The notes beneath the pieces are model-generated. The model saw nothing but the letters and a program-made list of their open reading frames with translations, searched no databases and had not been told where the DNA came from. From a virus, in IMG/VR virus record IMGVR_UViG_3300037635_002605, positions 1 to 21,847 of that record: 21,847 nt of DNA. One strand, given 5' to 3'. Positions 129 through 21,712 of this stretch are shown piece after piece. Every line of letters begins with the position of its first letter. Position 1 is the stretch's first letter. A program made the translations under genes and the position numbers.

Positions 129-1292
129 TTATTTAAATGATAAAACATACTTACCTTTATTTTGTTGCTTAATACTTAATCTACTCATTGCTAAATAACG
201 CAATGCATCAATCAAGTGATTATTAAAATCTTGTGGTTTATCTAATACAATTCCATTCTTATCCGTACGATACTCATATGAATATAGTTCATCAATTAAA
301 TGCGTGCTCTTTGAATCTACATTAAGTGCAAAGTTTTGTAATACAGATATCCCGAAGTTGATACTATCAGGTCCTTTCTTCACAGGTTTAATATTAAAAC
401 CAGAACGATAGATTTCTTCTATCAATCGTGGTTCTGCACTATCTGCCCAAATCTCATCTGTTCTACCTATGTTAAGTGATTTTAATCTTTTAATTATATC
501 TGTTGTTGTCAGACCTGTATCATACATTAGTTCTCTACAATACAACATATCATGATGTCTATGTACGGCTACCAATGCAGTTGGGTCATTACTAAATCCA
601 AAGTCAAGACCAAATCCTACTAACTCATGTACAGGCATCTCTTCTAATATTTGGAAGTTATTGAATACTGCTTTCTCATTCGCTGCATATTCTCCTAATC
701 CATATATCTTCCAATACTTTGGATTCTTTATCTCTAGTGATTCAATCTCTTTTACCATTTGTTCTGGTAGATAAGGATTGTCTTTATAAGTTGTATTGAA
801 TATCTGTACATCATCCATACTACGAAGGAAATGATACGGAGATACTGTTGGGTTAAATGCTAATATAATTTCACCTGTTGTTCTTATACTCAATTGAAAG
901 TATGCTTCTTGATGTTGTTCCGATGCTTCATCTATAAAAAGTATATCACTCTTAACACCTCTTAACTTTTCTGCATCATCTGTATTTACAAACGATATAA
1001 GTGCACCATTGCTAAACGAATAAACCCTATCAGAGATGTTGTATGATTCGTTTGACCATATTCCAAGCTCTAACATGATTTCTTTAAAATCTTTGATTAC
1101 AGAACGTTTAAGAGATGGAACAGTTCTTCTTACTATTGTAATGTTCTGTGGTTCTTGTAGAGCTTTTACTATAAGGTATTGTAAGATAGCATATGTCTTA
1201 CCTGACCTAGTTCCCCCTATATGCTGCGTTATTCTCTTCTTAGCTTCTAGAAGGTTATCAAATGTTATGGTTGTATTAACCGTCAATTCCAT
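129..1292 (-). CDS. terL: Terminase large subunit (packaging ATPase and nuclease)
   Basis: This is the motor that pumps phage DNA into the prohead and cuts the concatemer. The 387-residue protein has a Walker A motif GGTRSGKT at residues 26-33, a hydrophobic Walker B ILFIDE at 117-122, and a coupling-type motif FNPT at 146-149. The C-terminal half carries the RNase H-like nuclease acids: D230 in GFGLDFGFSNDP, D284 in EIWADSAEP and D362 in NNHLIDALRY. Length and motif order fit a complete protein of the Terminase_3/PBSX type. It overlaps the preceding small-terminase gene by 17 nt, which supports translational coupling. Nothing is missing or truncated. The terminase genes sit at the end of the leftward replication/regulation operon, far from the portal at 19527, so the head genes are split in this genome. 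Confidence 0.96.
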   Translation of the reverse strand: MELTVNTTITFDNLLEAKKRITQHIGGTRSGKTYAILQYLIVKALQEPQNITIVRRTVPSLKRSVIKDFKEIMLELGIWSNESYNISDRVYSFSNGALISFVNTDDAEKLRGVKSDILFIDEASEQHQEAYFQLSIRTTGEIILAFNPTVSPYHFLRSMDDVQIFNTTYKDNPYLPEQMVKEIESLEIKNPKYWKIYGLGEYAANEKAVFNNFQILEEMPVHELVGFGLDFGFSNDPTALVAVHRHHDMLYCRELMYDTGLTTTDIIKRLKSLNIGRTDEIWADSAEPRLIEEIYRSGFNIKPVKKGPDSINFGISVLQNFALNVDSKSTHLIDELYSYEYRTDKNGIVLDKPQDFNNHLIDALRYLAMSRLSIKQQNKGKYVLSFK

Positions 1293-1581
1293 CGTTACTA
1301 CCTGATTTGTTTATGTTGATGTTAATAGATTGTATCTTCTGCTCTATCTCACCTTTTAACTCTACCCTTGATTGTTTAGGTAAGATATATTCTAATATCT
1401 TAAGATATAATTCAGCTGCTCTTATTGGGTCTTTCTCTCTTATCTTATTTAAATCTTCCTTTAAATGATTCAATCCCTCATCAGTAATACGAGCAAGTGT
1501 AAGTTTAGCCATTTCAGTACTACGATTGATAGCTCCTTTAGGTCTTCCCTTACTTAACTTATTTCCTTTTGCGAATGGCAT
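1276..1581 (-). CDS. terS: Probable terminase small subunit
   Basis: A 101-residue basic protein placed immediately before and overlapping the large terminase, the usual place for the small subunit that recognises packaging DNA. The N-terminus has the lysine/glycine-rich FAKGNKLSKGRPKGAINRST segment seen in small DNA-binding phage proteins of this kind, followed by helical stretches (about residues 22-75). The C-terminal tail is rich in I, N and G and lies over the start of terL. The ATG at 1581 is preceded by a short A/T-rich leader and, 22 nt upstream, by the promoter-like motif at 1604-1618, so it may head its own late transcript. Assignment rests on position, size and charge. A generic small DNA-binding protein is the alternative. 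Confidence 0.65.
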   Translation of the reverse strand: MPFAKGNKLSKGRPKGAINRSTEMAKLTLARITDEGLNHLKEDLNKIREKDPIRAAELYLKILEYILPKQSRVELKGEIEQKIQSINININKSGSNDGIDG

Positions 1582-1649: not shown

Positions 1650-1865
1650 CTACTCATCTTTTGTCTTTATATCTTCTAACTTTTGCTTATGTATCGCTAC
1701 TTGTTTAGCTCTTCTATTGATGACTGATGGTTTAAGAAATTCTTTTCTTCTTCTTAATTCAAATAAGTGGTCTGAATCTTTTACTCTTCTTTTAAAGATA
1801 CTCAACGCTTTCTGTATGTTATTGTTTCTTACCTTTACCGAAACTTTAGGTTTGTTCTTACTCAT
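1650..1865 (-). CDS. rpsU: Phage-encoded ribosomal protein bS21
   Basis: This 71-residue, strongly basic protein matches bacterial bS21, a small-subunit protein near the 3' end of 16S rRNA and the mRNA exit site. The match covers nearly the full family length: KVSVKVRNNNIQKALSIFKR at residues 7-26, ELRRRKEFLKPSVINRRAKQ at 36-55, and a basic tail. KPSV at 45-48 followed by a helix of the AIY/AIH type is the Bacteroidota version, not the proteobacterial one. From memory of Bacteroidia bS21, the conserved tyrosine (Tyr54) of the AIY motif helps to hold the anti-Shine-Dalgarno sequence; the aligned phage residue is His59. The start overlaps the previous gene by ATGA. Phage bS21 genes are known from other phages. 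The protein probably replaces or competes with host bS21 in late infection; that is inference. Confidence 0.9.
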   Translation of the reverse strand: MSKNKPKVSVKVRNNNIQKALSIFKRRVKDSDHLFELRRRKEFLKPSVINRRAKQVAIHKQKLEDIKTKDE

Positions 1866-2185
1866 GATGCATCATATTTTTTTCTTCCATTAATCATATG
1901 TTCTCTTATGAATTTATCTCTAGTTGATAAAGTACTCCATACAAACTTCTGATAATTACCATCTTGTTCGTGTAGTAAATCACATATCTCTTTTAACCAT
2001 CTCTTATACGTTTCTCTATCTTCTTCTGGATAAGGTTCTATAAATCTACCTGATTTAATGTCTGCAAATAAGTTGTCTGGATATTTCTCAAGCAATTCTT
2101 GTTTCTGTTCTCTGAACTTTACATAATCTTTGTTCTTCATTCGAACATCAAGCTTTGCCCAATTGGTAGTACTGTTTGGATTCAT
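1862..2185 (-). CDS. Hypothetical 107-residue protein between sigma-like factor and bS21
   Basis: I do not recognise a family. The protein is charged and mostly helical by eye. It has a lysine/arginine-rich N-terminal part (residues 10-30), an acidic proline-containing middle (FIEPYPEEDRETYKRW, about 48-63) and a long helical C-terminal part ending GRKKYDAS. There is no signal peptide, membrane segment or metal-binding cysteine set. The start at 2185 follows the sigma-like gene by 9 nt with an A-rich leader, and the TGA stop overlaps the bS21 ATG by 4 nt (ATGA). It is therefore translationally coupled to bS21 and may be needed in step with it, but a functional link is only inference. A terminase-associated or DNA-binding role is equally possible. 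Confidence 0.75.
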   Translation of the reverse strand: MNPNSTTNWAKLDVRMKNKDYVKFREQKQELLEKYPDNLFADIKSGRFIEPYPEEDRETYKRWLKEICDLLHEQDGNYQKFVWSTLSTRDKFIREHMINGRKKYDAS

Positions 2186-2194
2186 ATATTTATT

Positions 2195-2761
2195 TTAATT
2201 AGTTTCATCTGTAATATCTTTAAAAGGATTATCAATCATCATTTTTAAGTGTTGTTTTATTTTTTTAATGTTAAGAAAGACTGTACTCTTTGATATACCA
2301 ACTTCTTTACTTAGTTCATCCATAGTTAAATCACTAAATGCATAGAGTTCATATAACTTAGCACTACTCCACATACGCGATGATTTAAGAGTATCTAATT
2401 CTTTTTTGATACAATCATATGCATACTCTAATCTTTTATCCTCACCTACGTTGTATATGTTATCTGGCTTATCTTTCCACTCACTAACATATGTTGTTTT
2501 GTTTTCTCGTTTGATATAATTTATAAATCTAGAAGATATAAAGTTATAACAATACAACAAATTAAAAGAATCATTAAAAAATATTTTAGGATTTTGTTTC
2601 TCTGCTAGATACACATATAAATCTTGTACCAAATCTTGTGATACTTGTTTATCTTTAGATTTATTATATGCTACTGCAGTTAACCATTGATGGTGGTTGT
2701 TATACAATACACCCAATCGTTTGTTAATCTCTATATGTAGTGAACCACTATCTATTGTCAT
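2195..2761 (-). CDS. Sigma-70/ECF-like RNA polymerase sigma factor
   Basis: The 188-residue protein has the two-domain layout of a small (ECF-like) sigma factor. A region-2-like helix pair lies at residues 24-85, with QWLTAVAYNKSKDKQVSQDL and VQDLYVYLAEKQ as the RNA-polymerase-binding part. A region-4-like helix-turn-helix lies at about 130-172, with LTMDELSKEVGISKSTVFLN as the DNA-recognition part. The linker is charged. Such factors redirect the host RNA polymerase to phage promoters. It sits upstream of bS21 and the terminase genes, and a 15-base motif recurs ahead of late-type genes, so it is the best candidate for a late switch protein. A plain HTH regulator without sigma activity cannot be excluded, because region 2 is divergent. 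Confidence 0.7.
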   Translation of the reverse strand: MTIDSGSLHIEINKRLGVLYNNHHQWLTAVAYNKSKDKQVSQDLVQDLYVYLAEKQNPKIFFNDSFNLLYCYNFISSRFINYIKRENKTTYVSEWKDKPDNIYNVGEDKRLEYAYDCIKKELDTLKSSRMWSSAKLYELYAFSDLTMDELSKEVGISKSTVFLNIKKIKQHLKMMIDNPFKDITDETN

Positions 2762-3265: not shown

Positions 3266-3471
3266 TTCTTTAGTTTTTTTGCGTAATGTCTTAATTCTTT
3301 TTTACTCATAGGAAAATCTCCTACTTCAAATTTAATTGGTTCATCTGAATTGGTTAATAGATAATATAATTCCCACTTATTCCATAACTGTAAATGTCTT
3401 GTTGGTTCTAATGATATTAAGACAACTTCATTATCTATTATTTCTTTTACTTTAATTTTACCTAGTTTCAT
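3262..3471 (-). CDS. Hypothetical 69-residue protein
   Basis: I do not recognise this protein. It starts with a short beta-rich part (GKIKVKEIIDNEVVLISLEP), followed by a tryptophan/tyrosine-rich segment (LWNKWELYYLL) and a lysine-rich C-terminal helix (PMSKKELRHYAKKLKK). The last part could bind nucleic acid. It overlaps both neighbours by ATGA (4 nt): the GIY-YIG endonuclease upstream and the CGC-motif protein downstream. That makes it a genuine member of the operon. There is no signal peptide or transmembrane helix. Confidence 0.7.
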   Translation of the reverse strand: MKLGKIKVKEIIDNEVVLISLEPTRHLQLWNKWELYYLLTNSDEPIKFEVGDFPMSKKELRHYAKKLKK

Positions 3472-3995
3472 TTGTTGTGTTGTATGTTTAATAATTTATA
3501 TCCTCTTGCTTTATAAAATTTAATCCAGTTCTTTTCTAATTTGTACCCTTGATATCTTGTACCTGGTTTAGTTTCTAATACAATTGCAGATGCTAAAGAC
3601 TCTTCTATTTCTTCTTTACTCATCGTATCCCACATCTTGTGTAATGTTGGTAACCAACCACGCTTGTTTTTATAATCTGCTCTGTGTGTCGATATTCTTA
3701 CATTCAACTTAGCTTTTGTCATACCAATATAGAAATAATCTTTAACCTTAAGTAGATACACTTTTATATCTTCATCAGCTCTTCTGTAATCTGCTATATA
3801 TTCCCAATTCTCTCTGTGTGAGAAATAACCATCGGTTGTATTCCAGTATTCCGGTCTGATATCGTTTCTGTATTTCTTATTGTATTTGTTTTGACATACT
3901 TTACATCTATACTGATAACCTTGAACTCCTCTGTAAGTTCGTTTGTGGAAATCTGTGTAAGGTTTTGTCTTATGACATTTGTTACATTCTTTCAT
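3468..3995 (-). CDS. GIY-YIG endonuclease with N-terminal zinc finger (left copy)
   Basis: A 175-residue free-standing homing-type nuclease. The N-terminus carries a four-cysteine zinc finger: C4 and C7, then C31 and C34, with KPYTDFHKRT between. The GIY-YIG core follows: KVYLL at residues 78-82 (the GIY position), FYIGMT at 88-93 (YIG), R100 and H104. A C-terminal YKLLN ends the domain as in many family members. All catalytic positions that I can place are present. It resembles the right-hand endonuclease (21299-21712) in architecture, so the two are probably paralogues that spread in the genome. It lies in the middle of the replication/regulation operon and shares its transcription. Such genes are selfish elements that cut intron-less or homologous DNA near their own site. 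Confidence 0.88.
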   Translation of the reverse strand: MKECNKCHKTKPYTDFHKRTYRGVQGYQYRCKVCQNKYNKKYRNDIRPEYWNTTDGYFSHRENWEYIADYRRADEDIKVYLLKVKDYFYIGMTKAKLNVRISTHRADYKNKRGWLPTLHKMWDTMSKEEIEESLASAIVLETKPGTRYQGYKLEKNWIKFYKARGYKLLNIQHNK

Positions 3996-6246: not shown

Positions 6247-6726
6247 ATGAAACAATTAATGATGGTCTTGATGATGACCTTAATATCATTCACAACTTAC
6301 TCACAAACTGTGGGTGTATCCGCTAACTCATCTGAACTAGGAGCTGGTTATGGTTTCTATATAGAAGATGATGATAGTAAGTTTGGATTTGAATATCAAA
6401 AAGGAGCAACTATCAATTCAGACCCATTACAAGTAGAACAATACTTGAATGGTGAAATAGATTCATATACTGCTGGTAGTTCTTTTTATAATATAGGTGC
6501 TTATTGGTATGTATATCAAACTAATAGAACCAAGTTTTTATGGGGATTAGGAGCACAAAGTGAAAAAGAATTTAATACAACAGGTGATATTAAATCAATG
6601 AATATATATAGTAACATAGGATTTAAGTATCAACTAGATAAACTAGTTTCTTTCAAAGCAAGTTATCAATATGCACCTCATGGTGGTATTGATTCTATTG
6701 TAATTGGAATGGGATTTGATTTATAA
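6247..6726 (+). CDS. Secreted outer-membrane beta-barrel-like protein
   Basis: A 159-residue protein with a signal peptide: MKQLMMVLMMTLISFTTYSQ, with likely cleavage after YSQ as is common in Bacteroidota. The mature part alternates polar and aromatic/hydrophobic residues in short strands with glycine turns (ELGAGYGFYI, FGFEYQ, YNIGAYWYVY, FLWGLGAQ, SNIGFKYQL, FKASYQY). It ends with IVIGMGFDL, as outer-membrane barrels do. The size suits an eight-stranded barrel. It is the last gene of a rightward early-type cassette and stands outside the structural operon, so it is more likely a host-envelope modifier than a virion part. Receptor masking or superinfection exclusion is an inference. Acquisition from a host genome is plausible. 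Confidence 0.65.
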   Translation: MKQLMMVLMMTLISFTTYSQTVGVSANSSELGAGYGFYIEDDDSKFGFEYQKGATINSDPLQVEQYLNGEIDSYTAGSSFYNIGAYWYVYQTNRTKFLWGLGAQSEKEFNTTGDIKSMNIYSNIGFKYQLDKLVSFKASYQYAPHGGIDSIVIGMGFDL

Positions 6727-7201: not shown

Positions 7202-7555
7202 TTATTTTACTTTGTAAAATTGATTATTAATCTTAACCTTACTAACAGTTCCTAATCTGATTGTGCGCCAATCTTGATTTGTTTGGGAGTACACTACCCA
7301 CATATTTTGTCTACGAAGTGTTCTCCTACGTTTTACAACACCAGGTGATGAGTTAGGTACTTTATCTCTTGTTTGTTCCATTCTTCTCATACCAACACCA
7401 TTTAACTTAGTACTCCATACTCTCATAGAAGTAAACTTAGTGTTCTTAATTAAATCTGTCATCTCTCTACGAGTAAGTTCAATTGCAGGTGCAGCAAAAT
7501 GATAAGTAGTATCTACTACTTTATTCATTACCTTTCTCATTAAATTATCTAACAT
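7202..7555 (-). CDS. Basic 117-residue structural-region protein
   Basis: A strongly basic protein. The first half is helical (residues 5-45, with ELTRREMTDLIKNTKF), a central segment is arginine-rich (GVVKRRRTLRRQNM, about 72-85), and the C-terminal domain has MWVVYSQTNQDWRTIRLGTV and ends KINNQFYKVK. The last part resembles a small SH3-like beta domain found in other phage proteins, from memory and without a name. It follows the prohead protease after 31 nt. Its start codon has a true Shine-Dalgarno-like AGGAG, unlike the other genes here. High charge suggests DNA or RNA contact in the capsid, or a tail-adaptor role; both are inference. Confidence 0.7.
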   Translation of the reverse strand: MLDNLMRKVMNKVVDTTYHFAAPAIELTRREMTDLIKNTKFTSMRVWSTKLNGVGMRRMEQTRDKVPNSSPGVVKRRRTLRRQNMWVVYSQTNQDWRTIRLGTVSKVKINNQFYKVK

Positions 7556-7586: not shown

Positions 7587-8747
7587 TTAATCTTTAGGGT
7601 GAGTCTTACAAGGCATATAATATGTACCTTGGTCTACTGTTTCATGTGGATGACTTCCGCTACATCCTATCATCTCTGCAAACTCTTCAGCCATCTCTTC
7701 TGTTGGAAACATAATCTTTCTAACATCATTTAAATTAGTAGAACCACTAATCATTTCATTTGATTCACCTGGGTATGATGAATTAGGAATTGATATTTCA
7801 TTTTCTTCTAACTCTCCTAGTTCTCTTAATTTATTTTTACTCCAACCCAATGCAGCTAATCCACCCCAAAGTAAATAACTTATGTTACCACAAGCTTCAC
7901 TATCGTTTTGTTTATCTCTATACACCTCTTCTGCTCTTGATAAATAAGAATGCATTCTTTTTATCGTCTCTAATGAAATTGGTCTACCTTGTGCTAATTG
8001 TTGTGCTCTTACTTTGCCAACAGGTGTTGCGCATTTGTTACCACTCTTCTCGTTTAGTTCAATACCTTTCTTAGCATTGTTCTTAACACCTTGAGGATAA
8101 TCTGAATAAGATTCCATCTCTACTCTCTTACCACCTTTGTATCTTTTATCTTCTTTAACTACTCTTCTTATTTCGTTAAGTAAGTATTCTGCTTCTTGAT
8201 TAAGTATATCTTCTAATACATCTTCTTTACTAGCTTGAACTAAATCATGTGAGAATAAACCTTCTATACTGAATCCTTTTACTTCACCATTCTTTACATA
8301 ATCTTTCCATATATCATCGTTATCAACTTTAAACATACCCATCCATGTTCCAACAGGTACATTTAATCCATAGGAGTTAGATTTATCTAATTTGGATGTC
8401 TTTATCCAACTCTCTACTAAAGTTACACCAGATACTTTCTTTTCGTGTTCTAACGTTGATTTAGCTTGATATCCTTTCTTAAGATATCCTTGTGCTAGTT
8501 TTTCTATTGTTTCAGGTTTAAAGAATACCTCATAAGGTTGTCCTTCTCCATCTATACGAAGAATCTTTTTATTTGGTATAAGAACAGGTCCTACTACCAA
8601 TCTTTTTTCGTTATCTATCTTTTCAAACTGAACTTTCTCTTTATCAAACCATACGAAATTACTTTCTATGGCTGGGTCTTCTACTAATGAAATAGCAAAT
8701 ACCTCATCTAAAAATTCATCATCTATGGTTAATTCAAATAGTTTCAT
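7587..8747 (-). CDS. XkdF-like prohead serine protease with extra C-terminal domains
   Basis: A 386-residue protein. Residues 1-170 match the XkdF/S78-like phage protease: LVVGPVLIPNKKILRIDGEG (50-69), PETIEKLAQGYLKKG (78-92), STLEHEKK with candidate catalytic His101, VTLVESW (108-114), GTWMGMFKVDNDDIW (133-147), and GEVKGFSIEGLF with candidate Ser160. Residues 210-310 form a second domain with YPQGVKNNAKKG, CATPVGKVRAQQLA, ISLETIKRMHSYLSRAEEVY and CGNISYLLWGG, common in phage head proteins. A third part, 346-386, has GCSGSHPHE and TYYMPCKTHP, a possible metal site. The protease should cleave scaffold or capsid during head maturation. It lies downstream of the tail genes instead of beside the portal, which is unusual. 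Confidence 0.82.
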   Translation of the reverse strand: MKLFELTIDDEFLDEVFAISLVEDPAIESNFVWFDKEKVQFEKIDNEKRLVVGPVLIPNKKILRIDGEGQPYEVFFKPETIEKLAQGYLKKGYQAKSTLEHEKKVSGVTLVESWIKTSKLDKSNSYGLNVPVGTWMGMFKVDNDDIWKDYVKNGEVKGFSIEGLFSHDLVQASKEDVLEDILNQEAEYLLNEIRRVVKEDKRYKGGKRVEMESYSDYPQGVKNNAKKGIELNEKSGNKCATPVGKVRAQQLAQGRPISLETIKRMHSYLSRAEEVYRDKQNDSEACGNISYLLWGGLAALGWSKNKLRELGELEENEISIPNSSYPGESNEMISGSTNLNDVRKIMFPTEEMAEEFAEMIGCSGSHPHETVDQGTYYMPCKTHPKD

Positions 8748-8781: not shown

Positions 8782-10341
8782 TTATCCAAACGAAGCTGCT
8801 GAGTTCGTTCTTCTATCTAATGCTTGTGTACTACTAACTTGTGTAGATACAACATATGCTTGTACAGGTCTTTGTGATGATGCTGCTATTGTTTGTGAAA
8901 TCTGTGAACCTGTATCACCTTCCATTGCAGCTGCAGTTTGTATTTGTGGAACTGTTGTTTGAGGTACAGATGGAGCTCCTCCTCCACCACCACCACTGGC
9001 ACCTCTAAGATTAGTTCCTGGTGGTTTTGGTACTTTAGTAGAAATAATCTTTCTAACTTGTAATAAACCTCCTGCAATAACAACACCTGCTGCAATACCA
9101 CCCCATGGTGGAGGATACGTTGCTAATGCTTTCGTAGCACCAAGATATGTGTTTATAGTTGCAGATGCAACTGCTAGAGCTTTACCAGCAATAGTATTTT
9201 CACCCACCATCTGTGCAACTGAACTAAGAGCTGAACTAATCACCATCAGTCTAGCTTCTTCTTCCTGCTCCGTCATTTGTAGTGATACCTCTGATGTCTG
9301 TTCTTGTGTATTAAGTGATAATTCAGAGAAATCTGTTTGAGTCTGAATCTTAGCTGCACCTGTTCTCTGTGCAGTTTCTATTTCAGATACACTAGATAGG
9401 TTATCATAGTTTCTTCTAATTTCTAATAAATCACCGTAATATTCTTGTTCTAATGCAGTAAAGTTTTCATATCCAGCTTGTTTAAGAATTGCGTATTCTT
9501 CATTGAATCTCGTTTCTCTTTCTATTAACTGTCTATCTCTTTCACTTAACAAAGATAACTCAGCTTCTAATTGTATAGCAGCTGCTTGTTCTCTAATAGC
9601 TTTAATCCTATCAACTTCTCGTTGAGTAGCATCTATTCTTTTCTGTGCCTCTTCTTCTGTTTTCTTTGTTAAATCTTCTTGTCTTTTTTCTTCATCATCA
9701 TATGCTTCTTGTAATACTGTTGATGATGCTCTACTTGCTTCTTCTATCTTTTCTGATGATATACCTAAGAACTTAGCAAATCTATTAAATCCACTAGCAA
9801 CTTTCTCTATTACCATTGCGAAGTTTTCAAAGATAGGTAATGCTACTTTTTCAATTACCGCAAAAACAGGTCCTAATATCTTACCAAATGCTGCTGATAT
9901 TCTATTTAAAGTTTCTTGTCCTTCAGATGTTTTACTTAATGATTCTCTCATCATAAGGAATGCACCAGCAATTGCAGTTACAACGGCAATGATTGGATTA
10001 GCCATAAACACTTTTAATGTTCCTCTTAATCCTTCCATTGATTGTCCTACCAATCCAATAACACCTGGTTGAGCTCCTAACGCTTCTGTAAATCTAACAG
10101 ATGCTATTTCTGTATCTGCTAAATCATCTTTTAAATTAGATAGTTCTTTTGATAATTCCTTAAACTCTTTAGATTTAGGGTCAATCTTTCCTAACGTATC
10201 TTGTGTTTTAGATATCGCTTCATTAAGGTTATCAAACTCACCAATGGAAGTAGAAATAGTTTTGTTAAGCAAATCAACATTCTTGCCTCCTTCAACTTCG
10301 ACATCTATTACTGCACTATATGTGGTTGTGTTTTCAGCCAT
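8782..10341 (-). CDS. Tape-measure-like tail protein
   Basis: A 519-residue protein with tape-measure features. It has an N-terminal helical part (residues 20-80, NLNEAISKTQDTLGKIDPKS), a hydrophobic helix at about 108-131 (FMANPIIAVVTAIAGAFLMM), and more hydrophobic helix at 153-185. A long charged coiled coil spans about 200-320. A second hydrophobic stretch at 386-432 contains YLGATKALATYPPPWGG and AAGVVIAGGLLQVRKI, which is typical of this family, and a Gly/Ser/Thr/Pro tail follows. At 519 residues it is short for a siphovirus tape measure. It sets tail length and may form part of the DNA channel in the host envelope. Its ATG shares one base with the stop of the microprotein before it (TAATG). 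Confidence 0.72.
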   Translation of the reverse strand: MAENTTTYSAVIDVEVEGGKNVDLLNKTISTSIGEFDNLNEAISKTQDTLGKIDPKSKEFKELSKELSNLKDDLADTEIASVRFTEALGAQPGVIGLVGQSMEGLRGTLKVFMANPIIAVVTAIAGAFLMMRESLSKTSEGQETLNRISAAFGKILGPVFAVIEKVALPIFENFAMVIEKVASGFNRFAKFLGISSEKIEEASRASSTVLQEAYDDEEKRQEDLTKKTEEEAQKRIDATQREVDRIKAIREQAAAIQLEAELSLLSERDRQLIERETRFNEEYAILKQAGYENFTALEQEYYGDLLEIRRNYDNLSSVSEIETAQRTGAAKIQTQTDFSELSLNTQEQTSEVSLQMTEQEEEARLMVISSALSSVAQMVGENTIAGKALAVASATINTYLGATKALATYPPPWGGIAAGVVIAGGLLQVRKIISTKVPKPPGTNLRGASGGGGGGAPSVPQTTVPQIQTAAAMEGDTGSQISQTIAASSQRPVQAYVVSTQVSSTQALDRRTNSAASFG

Positions 10342-16425: not shown

Positions 16426-18087
16426 TTATATTAAATCGTTAGTTAATACACCTTTTAATTTATTTGTATCAAAGGATACGAATGTTGCAATATCTACTGC
16501 TCCTGCTTCAGGAGTAATAGATGGTTGATTTAATCTTGGAAAACTATAATCATCTGTATCAAATACTAAATTTGAACTACCTGTTAGTGGTTGTTCTATT
16601 TGTAATGTAATTGTTAAACCAGGAACTATATTAGTTGCTTCTACATTTGTAGATGAACCACTAGGTAAACTTAATGTAAAGAAATTACCAGTACTACAAT
16701 CTAAACTTGCAGTGTTTGATGTGATTGTTAAAGAGTTTACTATACCTTGAACTGAACCACTAAATACTTGGTCTCCATCAAATGTATTAGAACCAGTAGT
16801 TGCATATGAACCAGTAAATGAACTTAAAGTATCTACCTCTACTTGTAAAGATGCAGTTGTTAATTCTATATCATCTAATCTATCTTGTATTGAACCTGTT
16901 TCCTTTTCTATATTGGTTAATCTATCATCTTGTGCACCTTGTTCTACTTCTATTGAAGCGGTATAAGAATTAAAATCAGGTGTAGAAACAAAATCTATTG
17001 AAAGTGATGAACTAAAGTTTTCTTGATTATCTAATCTTAAATCAAACGATGCTGAATCTATATAATAAGATGAAGTGAATGTATTGTATCCACTATTGAT
17101 GTTTAATTGAGATGATGTAAAATCATTTAACGATTCAGTATGTTGATTATAAAAACCATTTATAGTTTCTTGAGAACCAGTAAATGCTTCTAATGAATCT
17201 AATCTATTATCTTGTGAGCCTGTATCTGCTTCTAACTGGTCTATTCTATTATCAAATGATGCTGAATCTGTATTATAAACTGATACATCTAATTTATTTG
17301 TTTCTAATGATGCAGTTGTAGCTTCTATATTATCTAATCTATCATCAGTTGAAGATGTATAAGAATTATATCCACTATTAATATCTAATTGAGATGAAGT
17401 AAAGTTATCTAGGTTATTTATTCTATTATCAAAAGATGCTGAATCTGTTTGATATTCTGATGAACTAAAGAATTCTAAATCATCTAATCTACTATCTACC
17501 GATGCAGAGTAAGATGTTACATTACCTATACCATTAAGGGTAGAAGAACTTATCTCATTACTTACTGTAAGAGAACCTGTGAACGCTGAATTACCTTCTA
17601 CACCCAAAGTACCACTTACGATAACTTGTCCTATTAGCGTTTGTGTATCACTCTCTTCATCACCTAATACATTCGAACCACTTGAGAATATTACACTAGC
17701 AGATTCTTCTGTAATGTTTAACAACCTTGCATTAACTGTATCAAAGTTTCCTATATTAGCAGTTACATCTCCTTGTATAGTTACATCACCTAATACATCA
17801 ATTGAACCTGTATGTACGAATGAACCACTTATATCTAAATCACCTGCGATATCTACATCACTTCTAAAGAATGCAGAACCAGTTACATCTAATGAACTAC
17901 TTACACTTAATTCTTTATTTATTCTCCAATTATTTGAAGATGCATCAATAGCAGCACCAATGTTTTCTCCCATACCATCTTGTAGTTCTACATAACCACT
18001 TTGGGATGTAAGGTTTTGGGTACTATCTTCTAAGTTTATCAGTCCTAAGTAAGAACCGCTAATCATCATGTTACTTAAATTACTCAT
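16426..18087 (-). CDS. Long tail fibre with beta repeats and coiled coil
   Basis: A 553-residue structural protein in three parts. Residues 55-190 contain short repeated beta strands (SVSSSLDVTGSAFFRSDVDI, AGDLDISGSFVHTG, VLGDVTIQGDVTANIG) that fit a beta-helix or triple-stranded fibre shaft. Residues 195-425 contain heptad repeats of the type S(A/T)xDxRLDxIE, for example SASFDNRI at 217 and 275, and two copies of FTSSQL(D/N)INSGYN at 229 and 323, a parallel trimeric coiled coil. Residues 430-553 are a beta tip (NFFTLSLPSGSSTNVEATNI and ATFVSFDTNKLKG). It lies between a tail completion-like gene and the Gly/Cys-rich adhesin, which may bind its end. Repeat slippage in the DNA can change shaft length. 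Confidence 0.72.
   Translation of the reverse strand: MSNLSNMMISGSYLGLINLEDSTQNLTSQSGYVELQDGMGENIGAAIDASSNNWRINKELSVSSSLDVTGSAFFRSDVDIAGDLDISGSFVHTGSIDVLGDVTIQGDVTANIGNFDTVNARLLNITEESASVIFSSGSNVLGDEESDTQTLIGQVIVSGTLGVEGNSAFTGSLTVSNEISSSTLNGIGNVTSYSASVDSRLDDLEFFSSSEYQTDSASFDNRINNLDNFTSSQLDINSGYNSYTSSTDDRLDNIEATTASLETNKLDVSVYNTDSASFDNRIDQLEADTGSQDNRLDSLEAFTGSQETINGFYNQHTESLNDFTSSQLNINSGYNTFTSSYYIDSASFDLRLDNQENFSSSLSIDFVSTPDFNSYTASIEVEQGAQDDRLTNIEKETGSIQDRLDDIELTTASLQVEVDTLSSFTGSYATTGSNTFDGDQVFSGSVQGIVNSLTITSNTASLDCSTGNFFTLSLPSGSSTNVEATNIVPGLTITLQIEQPLTGSSNLVFDTDDYSFPRLNQPSITPEAGAVDIATFVSFDTNKLKGVLTNDLI
16815..17490 (-). repeat. Coding repeats of the fibre coiled coil
   Basis: Imperfect repeats of about 10-60 nt encode DSASFDxR(I/L)DxLE and FTSSQLxINSGYN units. 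The clearest pair is around residues 225-245 and 318-340. Such repeats allow length change by recombination. Confidence 0.55.
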
Positions 18088-19526: not shown

Positions 19527-20807
19527 TTATATTGTTGAATCATAATGAGATTCAAAACCAAAATCTGTTGGTCTCATCGGCTCATACTCTTCACTCTTTT
19601 TGTTTCTTTCTAACTGTTGATTTTCTTCTCCTTCTCCACCTTGTAAGTTATCATCTATCTCTTCTTGAACTTCTTCTATTGTCTGGTCTGTATCATCAGC
19701 CGTATCTGAAAGGATTACAAGAGGTGTCAGTTGTTCAAAATATAAATCTGAACAATCTATACCACCAACTTTAAATGCGTTGTATATAGAGTTTATAACA
19801 AGGTTTTGGAATGGGAATATCGTCATCGTTTGCATAATTGAATATGCAGTTTTCATTTCTTCTGCTGCTGAAGAGAATCCATTGTTTGCAGTTCTAATAC
19901 CAAATAATAAAGGTGATACTATTCTATGAGCTACAAGAATTCTATCTTGTGCATATTCAGCAACATACTGATACTTCTCGTGTAAGTTCTCCATAGGGAA
20001 CGTATCAATAGTAGGTTTGTTTACTGCATCATCATTAAACGATACCATAAATCTACCAGCGTTTCTTGTACCTGTAAACTTAGCTTCTAATAAACTTTCT
20101 ATTGTTTGTCTTTCTTCAGGTGCAGGAACTCCATTATTGAAATTCACCATACCTACTGGTAAGAAACCATTTTCTATATTGTTAAGGTGTAAGTTAGATA
20201 GTTCTGCTTCACTAAATGAAAATTGTAATGCAGAAATCCAATCAGGTAATGAATAGTAATATCTGTTAGGTTCATATTCTTTTACATAAAGTATTTCTAC
20301 TTCTTCATTAGATGAACCAAAGCAAGGTAAATACTTTTTCTCTTTCTGTCTTCTGTGGTCACTCCAATCAGAACAATAGTAGTATCCTTCGATTCTACCC
20401 ATATCATATATCTTCTTTGCTCTTAAATTTTGAACAGGCATATGATACATTCTTAATATCTGTGTATGTGATTTATTCCAAATGATTTGCCATGCAGCAT
20501 TACCATATAATTTTAAATCAAAAGTAATCTTTCTTAAATCTTCTGGTGGAATTATCTTATCTAATTCTTGTTGTTTATCTTCTTCTTTTGTAAAGATACC
20601 TTTACCATAAATTAAATCTGCTACACCTTCAACACAAGCTGCGTTAGTTGTAGATGTGTTGTATGCTTCAGTTATCATACCAAAATAATCGTCTTGATCC
20701 AGTATTCCGACTGGCACCCATTGATACCTTGTTTTTGTATCTTCTGTAACAATAGGAACATCCTGTCTTGTTAGATTTAATACTGAAAATTGTTCTTGTT
20801 TCTTCAT
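19527..20807 (-). CDS. Portal protein
   Basis: A 426-residue protein that should form the twelve-subunit ring for DNA entry at the capsid vertex. Evidence: VADLIYGKGIFTKEEDKQQE after an N-terminal lead-in; ITFDLKLYGNAAWQIIWNKS, the typical portal core strand-helix; ILRMYHMPVQNLRAKK; a wing part with VEILYVKEYEPNRYYYSLPD; and a long stem/crown part, HEKYQYVAEYAQDRILVAHR, IVSPLLFGIRTANNGFSSAA, EEMKTAYSIMQTMTIFPFQN. The last block (IV(S/P)P...G.......S..AE) is characteristic of PBSX-type portals. The tail is acidic (EEVQEEIDDNLQGGEGEENQ). It overlaps the previous gene by ATGA. No prohead protease or major capsid gene follows here; the capsid protein is probably encoded to the right of the window. 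Confidence 0.88.
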   Translation of the reverse strand: MKKQEQFSVLNLTRQDVPIVTEDTKTRYQWVPVGILDQDDYFGMITEAYNTSTTNAACVEGVADLIYGKGIFTKEEDKQQELDKIIPPEDLRKITFDLKLYGNAAWQIIWNKSHTQILRMYHMPVQNLRAKKIYDMGRIEGYYYCSDWSDHRRQKEKKYLPCFGSSNEEVEILYVKEYEPNRYYYSLPDWISALQFSFSEAELSNLHLNNIENGFLPVGMVNFNNGVPAPEERQTIESLLEAKFTGTRNAGRFMVSFNDDAVNKPTIDTFPMENLHEKYQYVAEYAQDRILVAHRIVSPLLFGIRTANNGFSSAAEEMKTAYSIMQTMTIFPFQNLVINSIYNAFKVGGIDCSDLYFEQLTPLVILSDTADDTDQTIEEVQEEIDDNLQGGEGEENQQLERNKKSEEYEPMRPTDFGFESHYDSTI

Positions 20808-21262: not shown

Positions 21263-21293
21263 TAGGATATATCAAATATTTTTCGTATATTAG
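21263..21293 (+). promoter_or_regulatory. Early-type promoter for the right-hand endonuclease
   Basis: TAG at 21263-21265 (TTG in the other two), a 20-nt spacer with GATATATCAAATAT, and TATATTAG at 21286-21293. The spacer length equals that of the promoters at 5157 and 5951. The ATG at 21299 begins only 6 nt after the box, so the mRNA would be leaderless or nearly so. Confidence 0.7.
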
Positions 21294-21298
21294 TGTAT

Positions 21299-21712
21299 AT
21301 GAAAGTTTGTACAAAGTGTAACGTAAATAAAAAAAGAACTGAATTCTTTAAGAAAAAAGATAGACCATTAGGTATTAGTTCTCATTGTAAGTTATGTACC
21401 TATGAATATAGGAACAAAAAAAGAAAACAAAACCCTCAAAAATCTAGAGATTATCATAATAGTTGGAGACATAATCAGAAAGATGGTAAATGGTCTGTGT
21501 ATATGTTAATAAACGCTAAAGAGTATGTTGGATATACTAACAACGAGTGGAGAAGAATGGCTGAACACAGAGCTCTAGGTTATGATACTACTGATTATAG
21601 AGTATTGATGAAGTGTGATACAGTTGAAGAAGCAAAAGAACTAGAAGAATTATTACACGATATGGGTTATCCAGGAAAGTATGGACATAAAAAATCCCCT
21701 ACCAAAAGGTAA
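21299..21712 (+). CDS. GIY-YIG endonuclease with N-terminal zinc finger (right copy)
   Basis: A 137-residue homing-type nuclease, read against the structural operon. The zinc finger uses C4 and C7, then C30 and C33, with KKRTEFFKKKDRPLG between. The GIY-YIG core has WSVYML (the GIY position, 65-70), EYVGYT (75-80), R85-R86 and H90, with the acidic helix EEAKELEELL after it. Architecture and motifs match the left copy at 3468-3995. I use the ATG at 21299 and not the GTG at 21293, because the GTG lies inside the promoter -7 box. The gene sits between two structural transcription units, with its own early-type promoter, and its last codons form one arm of the terminator of the opposing gene. This is a free-standing selfish gene. 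Confidence 0.85.
   Translation: MKVCTKCNVNKKRTEFFKKKDRPLGISSHCKLCTYEYRNKKRKQNPQKSRDYHNSWRHNQKDGKWSVYMLINAKEYVGYTNNEWRRMAEHRALGYDTTDYRVLMKCDTVEEAKELEELLHDMGYPGKYGHKKSPTKR

Follow-up and report, generated by a model that had tools for sequence, protein, structure and literature searches.

The 71-residue protein encoded at positions 1650-1865 of the window, a 21.8-kb viral contig taken over its full 21,847 nucleotides, is a genuine and unremarkable phage bS21, and it sits in a phage of the Shine-Dalgarno (SD)-free kind. The initial annotation had proposed that a histidine in place of a host tyrosine (Tyr54) lets this protein unlock the anti-SD of a Bacteroidota ribosome for the late genes of the phage. 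The structural genes of the window phage have no SD, and the residue at position 54 is not a reliable marker of anti-SD unlocking. In T4-like phages, which are not of the window's kind, SD motifs confined to late genes go with the carriage of bS21 and not with the loss of Tyr54. No ribosomal protein is found in phages more often than bS21.

The bS21 gene and its surroundings

Pfam family PF01165 matched residues 9-61 of the protein with 39.9 bits (cut-off 27, E 3.5e-10) over profile positions 1-54 of 55, which upholds the assignment to bS21 over nearly the full length, and PHROG 21469 ('ribosomal protein S21') matched the same ORF. The motifs FKRR (24-27), LRRR (37-40), KPSV (45-48) and AIHKQ (57-61) were all found where the initial annotation had placed them; the strand, which it had left unstated, is minus. 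A phmmer search against the PDB aligned residues 14-65 with residues 9-60 of Flavobacterium johnsoniae bS21 (7JIL_z); the offset is 5 throughout, and His59 therefore corresponds to Tyr54, as had been claimed. The host motif had been given as AIYxQ; AIYxQ-like forms do occur in other Bacteroidia, but F. johnsoniae itself has AAYIQ. The following features of the window are referred to below.

129-1292, minus strand: large terminase (PF04466 and PF17288)
1276-1581, minus strand: probable small terminase subunit (position and conservation beside terL; PHROG 8771, no function assigned)
1650-1865, minus strand: bS21 gene, 71 aa (PF01165, alignment to 7JIL_z, dN/dS about 0.2)
1689-1691, minus strand: codon 59 (CAT, His), aligned with Tyr54 (phmmer alignment; codon read)
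1862-1865, minus strand: ATGA overlap between the stop of the upstream 107-aa ORF and the bS21 start (ORF coordinates)
1862-2185, minus strand: 107-aa protein directly upstream of bS21 (homologues at the same place in relatives)
2195-2761, minus strand: probable phage sigma factor, 188 aa (phrog_1740, RNA polymerase sigma factor, E 1e-7; syntenic in relatives)
7202-7555, minus strand: 117-aa gene with the sole strong SD-like motif of the window (TAGGAGAGAT, dG -9.5)
7587-8747, minus strand: head maturation protease, late, without SD (PHROG 3017; dG +1.0)
8782-10341, minus strand: tail tape measure, late, without SD (PHROG 3336; dG -1.5)
19527-20807, minus strand: portal protein, late, without SD (PHROG 33693, E 1e-61; dG 0.0)

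Histidine also occupies the Tyr54 position in both closest homologues (L003 and L011, with 77% and 70% identity). Residues A20, L21, K25, R40, K45 and P46 are invariant in a bS21 alignment that includes F. johnsoniae and Escherichia coli, and the core (AL..FKR, R, KP) is kept in the window protein as it is in host and structurally solved bS21. Compared with its nearest distinct relative the gene has a dN of 0.19 and a dS of 0.94, which indicates purifying selection. A second contig carries the same bS21 gene; its identity over the first 11.9 kb is 99.8%. One bS21 search of genome contigs with the window protein as query returned no match. A role away from the ribosome, or as a decoy in defence or regulation that binds, for instance, host rpsU control or a bS21-sensing effector, was also considered. 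Extraribosomal roles of bS21 have been reported, as in the OLE RNP (PMC12054373), and selection could also maintain a protein that has lost its function in the ribosome; however, the RNA-binding core (ALxxFKR, R40, K45-P46) is conserved and the protein is under selection as a whole, and we consider such a role very unlikely.

The bS21 gene has the sigma-like gene on one side and terS/terL on the other, and it recurs at this place in related contigs (70-77% amino acid identity). The 107-aa protein directly upstream had no match in Pfam or PHROG, and the ATGA overlap, which is absent in L003 and L011, might allow coupled re-initiation of bS21. Elsewhere in the window, two proteins (21293-21712, plus strand; 3468-3995, minus strand) have similar Cys-rich N-termini, the former with a sub-threshold GIY-YIG match, and may be homing-type endonucleases. 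A 159-aa protein at 6247-6726 (plus, the strand opposite to bS21) is beta-rich, carries a signal peptide of Bacteroidota appearance (SFTTYSQ) and has no Pfam match; it is perhaps an outer-membrane moron. The 553-aa protein at 16426-18087 (minus) is tail-fibre-like, with repeated short coiled segments of the SASFDNRI type.

In a search of 50,697 phage records, the portal and the protease matched only, or best, the P12024S/L phages of marine Nonlabens, with 34.5% and 36.5% identity, respectively, over the aligned parts. The best match of the terminase was to Flavobacterium phages (40%). Judged indirectly, from these relatives and from an avoidance of SD as in Bacteroidia, a marine flavobacterium (Bacteroidia) is the probable host, in agreement with the Bacteroidota host suggested at the outset.

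Initiation signals, position 54 and the role of the window protein

SD use was scored on ATG-start ORFs of 80 aa or longer: the region from -20 to -4 was paired with the 16S tail CACCUCCUUUCU, the duplex energy was computed, and internal ATGs served as the background. In the window, energies of -6 kcal/mol or lower were found at 1 of 26 starts versus 12 of 99 internal ATGs (12%), and the mean was -0.86 at starts versus -2.49 at internal ATGs (Mann-Whitney p 0.003); a count of literal SD motifs gave 3/26 starts, near the internal rate of 8/99. The 117-aa gene with the one strong motif recurs only in the near-identical contig. By duplex energy there was no SD at the portal, protease, tape measure or other structural genes of the window, and these genes would gain nothing from an opened anti-SD; the SD-bearing late genes expected of a phage that unlocks the anti-SD were not found. 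For comparison, the proportions at starts versus internal ATGs were 1.8% versus 19% in flavobacterial host loci, 2.0% versus 4.3% in Flavobacterium phage Fpv5, and 32% versus 10% in Pelagibacter phage HTVC008M, which is an SD user and bS21 carrier. The start regions of the window are A-rich upstream, a property described for Bacteroidetes (PMC6847099). No phage-specific initiation signal was found in them, and they resemble those of hosts and of Bacteroidia phages without bS21.

The tyrosine itself was considered next to its natural variants. The literature describes Tyr54 as uniquely conserved in the class Bacteroidia. In a class-level sample of 90 Bacteroidia genomes we found Tyr in 81, Arg in 5, His in 2 and Leu in 2, so that about one in ten (9/90) lacked it, and the seven non-Tyr genomes in which SD use was sampled (two His, three Arg, two Leu; 17-66 genes per genome) were as SD-depleted as the Tyr genomes. 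A tyrosine that varies among hosts with a sequestered anti-SD had been named by the initial annotation as evidence against its own proposal, and this is largely what the host sample contains. Phage bS21 proteins most commonly have Arg at position 54, with Tyr, Ala, Leu, His, Phe, Gln, Ile and Met also present; the relatives of the window phage mostly have Arg, and the window has His where Bacteroidia-type bS21 has the tyrosine that stacks on A1534. In a tree of 144 bS21 proteins (with L178 and L181 as phage rows), most phage proteins formed one branch apart from Bacteroidota bS21 (support 95/98), and an S[DEG]H[LI] stretch shared by phage proteins stands in the place of host TG(T/I/V). The His group of the window adjoined Arg relatives in this tree, the details of which are uncertain given its few alignment columns. 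With Arg-bearing phage relatives around it, His59 is more plausibly a change inside a phage lineage than a recent swap of the host tyrosine.

Two further placements were seen in the bS21 comparison. The bS21 proteins of L013 and L017, whose terminases are 83-85% identical to that of the window, have Arg54 and group with those of SD-rich T4-like phages (96/95), which suggests that bS21 has been exchanged between unrelated phages. Another SD-free phage (L286 on G485, 72 kb) has a His54 bS21 inside the Flavobacterium bS21 branch, apparently a separate, recent capture.

What can be said for His59 opening the pocket of the 16S 3' tail, with SD recognition regained and late phage mRNAs favoured, is that the Y54A change in F. 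johnsoniae raises the expression of SD-dependent reporters up to about 3-fold (PMC9976891), that His aligns with Tyr54, and that related phages have Arg there. However, the late genes of the window lack SD, all Arg54 contigs in its terminase family are SD-poor, natural His, Arg and Leu54 Bacteroidia are SD-depleted with one His54 genome keeping an rpsU SD of -13.6, and Chen 2022 (PMC9723584) sees His as keeping the stacking. We therefore regard unlocking by His59 as highly improbable, and the claim that it serves the late genes of this phage finds no support in the window.

The control of the bS21 gene points to a different role. Flavobacterial host rpsU genes carried an extended SD in 79 of 79 cases (median -19.7 kcal/mol). 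In Flavobacterium, ribosomes lacking bS21 are poorer at translating SD-less mRNAs, and the very strong SD lets bS21-poor ribosomes alone switch on rpsU; the gene is autoregulated via its own SD (McNutt 2023, PMC9976891). The extended SD typical of Bacteroidia-type bS21 genes is missing from the phage gene, which has no SD upstream (dG -2.2 to -2.5), and none of the bS21 genes in the terminase family of the window has one (dG +2.9 to -2.5). Without a strong SD the phage gene should escape the rpsU feedback. McNutt 2023 (PMC9976891) also showed that bS21 without its C-terminal region lowers SD-less initiation, and another phage bS21 enters E. coli ribosomes (Mizuno 2019, PMC6375957).

The C-terminal result, taken with the SD-less phage genes, leads us to favour a supply or replacement role: we put it at about an even chance that the window protein replaces or tops up bS21 on host 30S subunits and so supports SD-less initiation on late phage mRNAs. 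The phage gene would be made by normal, bS21-replete host ribosomes, as it has no SD, and would stay outside the rpsU feedback loop. Its product would take the place of, or add to, host bS21 on the Bacteroidia 30S subunit and keep ribosomes stocked when host gene expression falls, and the stocked ribosomes would then support ordinary SD-less initiation on late phage mRNAs. Ribosome entry, timing and supply function are what we infer here. Two findings count against replacement, namely that the N-terminal helix of the window protein differs from that of host bS21 and that the related phage P12024S does without bS21.

The divergent helix raises the possibility that the protein may do more than replace host bS21. 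In the model of Chen 2022 this helix lies near the mRNA path, and a window bS21 that enters ribosomes could use it to re-select mRNAs by a feature other than SD. This would fit the supported separation of phage from Bacteroidota bS21 with its shared stretch, the mapping of phage-specific residues to the N-terminal helix, and late co-expression with structural genes, the last two from Chen 2022. On the other hand, no phage-specific signal was found in the start regions, and the phage branch includes the bS21 of SD-using phages, so its helix signature need not concern mRNA choice in Bacteroidia. We hold re-selection of this kind to be possible but rather unlikely.

Late-gene SD motifs in T4-like phages carrying bS21

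An SD-rich contig with bS21 (L216) matched Flavobacterium phage immuto, which is T4-like, does without bS21, and has SD at only 2 of 48 genes of its structural region. In a 288-kb relative of immuto that carries bS21 (G479), SD use was regional, with fractions of 0.35-0.54 in the structural block versus 0.00-0.04 in the first 60 kb. Its structural genes carried SD (mean -4.46, p 2e-6), while its non-structural genes avoided it (mean -0.67 versus -2.51 at internal ATGs, p 1e-16), and a 214-kb phage (G488) had the same split; the region limits in both were drawn after the map had been seen. For an unbiased test, genes were classed as structural or replication/metabolism by homology to annotated immuto genes. 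In six Arg54 contigs, energies of -5.5 or lower were then found at 47/84 structural versus 2/34 replication/metabolism genes (Fisher 2.4e-7, with related contigs treated as independent). The same classes gave 1/28 versus 1/31 in immuto, and Tyr54 contigs had SD at 1 of 14 structural genes. The SD richness of contigs with Ala54 and Leu54 went beyond structural genes (28/42 to 79/128 of all genes), the pattern expected from SD-using hosts. The large T4-like bS21 phages with SD on structural genes and avoidance elsewhere were L420-L434 (G479), L462-L472 (G488), L442-L447, L435-L441 and L448-L449.

In all Arg54 contigs tested, the genes for gp23, sheath and tail completion and the scaffold-like genes retained their SD cores even though four-fold sites were only about 40-65% identical, so the cores look selected; at terL and portal they were less consistent. 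This retention at orthologous late genes weakened the idea that the late module was recently imported from an SD-using phage, with its SDs decaying. The Arg54 bS21 genes themselves had an SD at normal spacing in only 1 of 30 cases, several having GGAGA touching the ATG, and the bS21 genes of Ala54 phages had one in 10/10. In G479 and G488, the clearest examples of the late-SD pattern, bS21 was among the genes without SD.

We also surveyed loci collected by the capsid protein gp23 and not by bS21, which left 80 non-duplicate loci with gp21 and gp23. SD at 40% or more of the structural genes was found in 16/22 contigs with bS21 versus 2/58 without (Fisher 3.5e-10, or 2.4e-6 after removal of Ala/Leu54, with related contigs treated as independent); L520, with bS21 elsewhere on its 253-kb contig, was counted among the carriers. 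On the gp23 tree there were five independent contrasts, in which SD followed bS21 in two to five and never went the opposite way (sign-test p 0.06-0.5). Residue 54 did not track the pattern: Arg54 occurred both with and without SD-bearing late genes, and T4-like phages with Tyr54 included some with SD (L669, L560, L554, L558, partly L667 and L670) and some without (L287-L306, G486, G490). The late-SD pattern thus goes with carrying bS21 and not with Tyr54 loss, and both Tyr54 loss as a marker of unlocking and Arg54 alone as the explanation of SD-rich phages were dropped, the latter after this survey, which was unselected for bS21.

The hosts of these phages were considered as well. Bacteroidota outside Bacteroidia whose own bS21 has Arg54 are less likely hosts of the Arg54 phages, since they are SD-neutral (24% versus an 18% background) and the phages avoid SD outside structural genes. 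The capsid proteins of mosaic phages matched those of Microcystis phage Mel-JY01 and of Rhodothermus phage RM378. Neither of these two phages nor cyanophage S-RIM14, all taken as controls, showed SD avoidance, which makes cyanobacterial or Rhodothermus hosts less probable for the mosaic phages.

For T4-like phages of probably SD-blind Bacteroidia, we tentatively propose, at somewhat less than an even chance, that phage bS21 is a late translational switch that does not require Tyr54 loss. The phage bS21 gene, lacking a properly spaced SD, would be made by unmodified ribosomes; its product would replace host bS21 and free the anti-SD, and the freed anti-SD would favour SD-bearing late mRNAs. The pattern is read from sequence, with inferred hosts and few independent evolutionary events. 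The initial suggestion that a bS21 swap changes late mRNA choice finds support in these phages, but not in the window phage and not through the loss of the tyrosine: the unlocking account does not fit the family of the window phage, which belongs to the SD-free kind of bS21 phage and would not use the switch. What emerges is a concrete prediction that T4-like phages of SD-blind hosts confine SD to structural genes, along with bS21. If confirmed, this would be a case of a phage that remodels the ribosomes of its host so that mRNA selection changes from early to late infection, and it would offer a natural system in which to study specialised bacterial ribosomes.

Comparison with described systems

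To our knowledge, SD use limited to late genes and linked to bS21 in T4-like phages is so far undescribed; no earlier description was found in the literature searched, which lay outside subscription papers and preprints. Chen 2022 (PMC9723584) did not examine the SDs of phage genes. His54 in phage bS21 is not new, as that study already read it, in some phage and bacterial proteins, as conserved aromatic stacking. Their Bacteroidetes myophage bS21 set (61 phage proteins; PMC9723584) resembles the window in the late block with terminase, here adjoining terS/terL, in the probable Bacteroidia host and in the His54 of some members, a residue of the aromatic class; the mostly Arg54 relatives of the window phage break the statement that all phage copies are aromatic. 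Their phages are large myophages with bS21 on the strand opposite to the structural genes, whereas the window phage is small and Nonlabens P12024-like, with bS21 on the same strand as these genes.

With F. johnsoniae bS21 (PDB 7JIL; McNutt 2023, PMC9976891) the window protein shares fold family, register and conserved core, and it differs in the Tyr54 to His change, in longer N- and C-terminal ends and in a gene without the autoregulating SD. The Nonlabens phages P12024S/L (NC_018271) share with the window a sigma-like gene upstream of terL and SD-poor genes, but P12024S, a related Flavobacteriaceae phage, lacks bS21. Finally, the T4-like late-SD phages (G479, G488, G478, G480 and G477) have in common with the window the bS21 branch and the avoidance of SD outside structural blocks, and they differ from it in the apparently selected SD motifs of their structural genes, which those of the window do not have.
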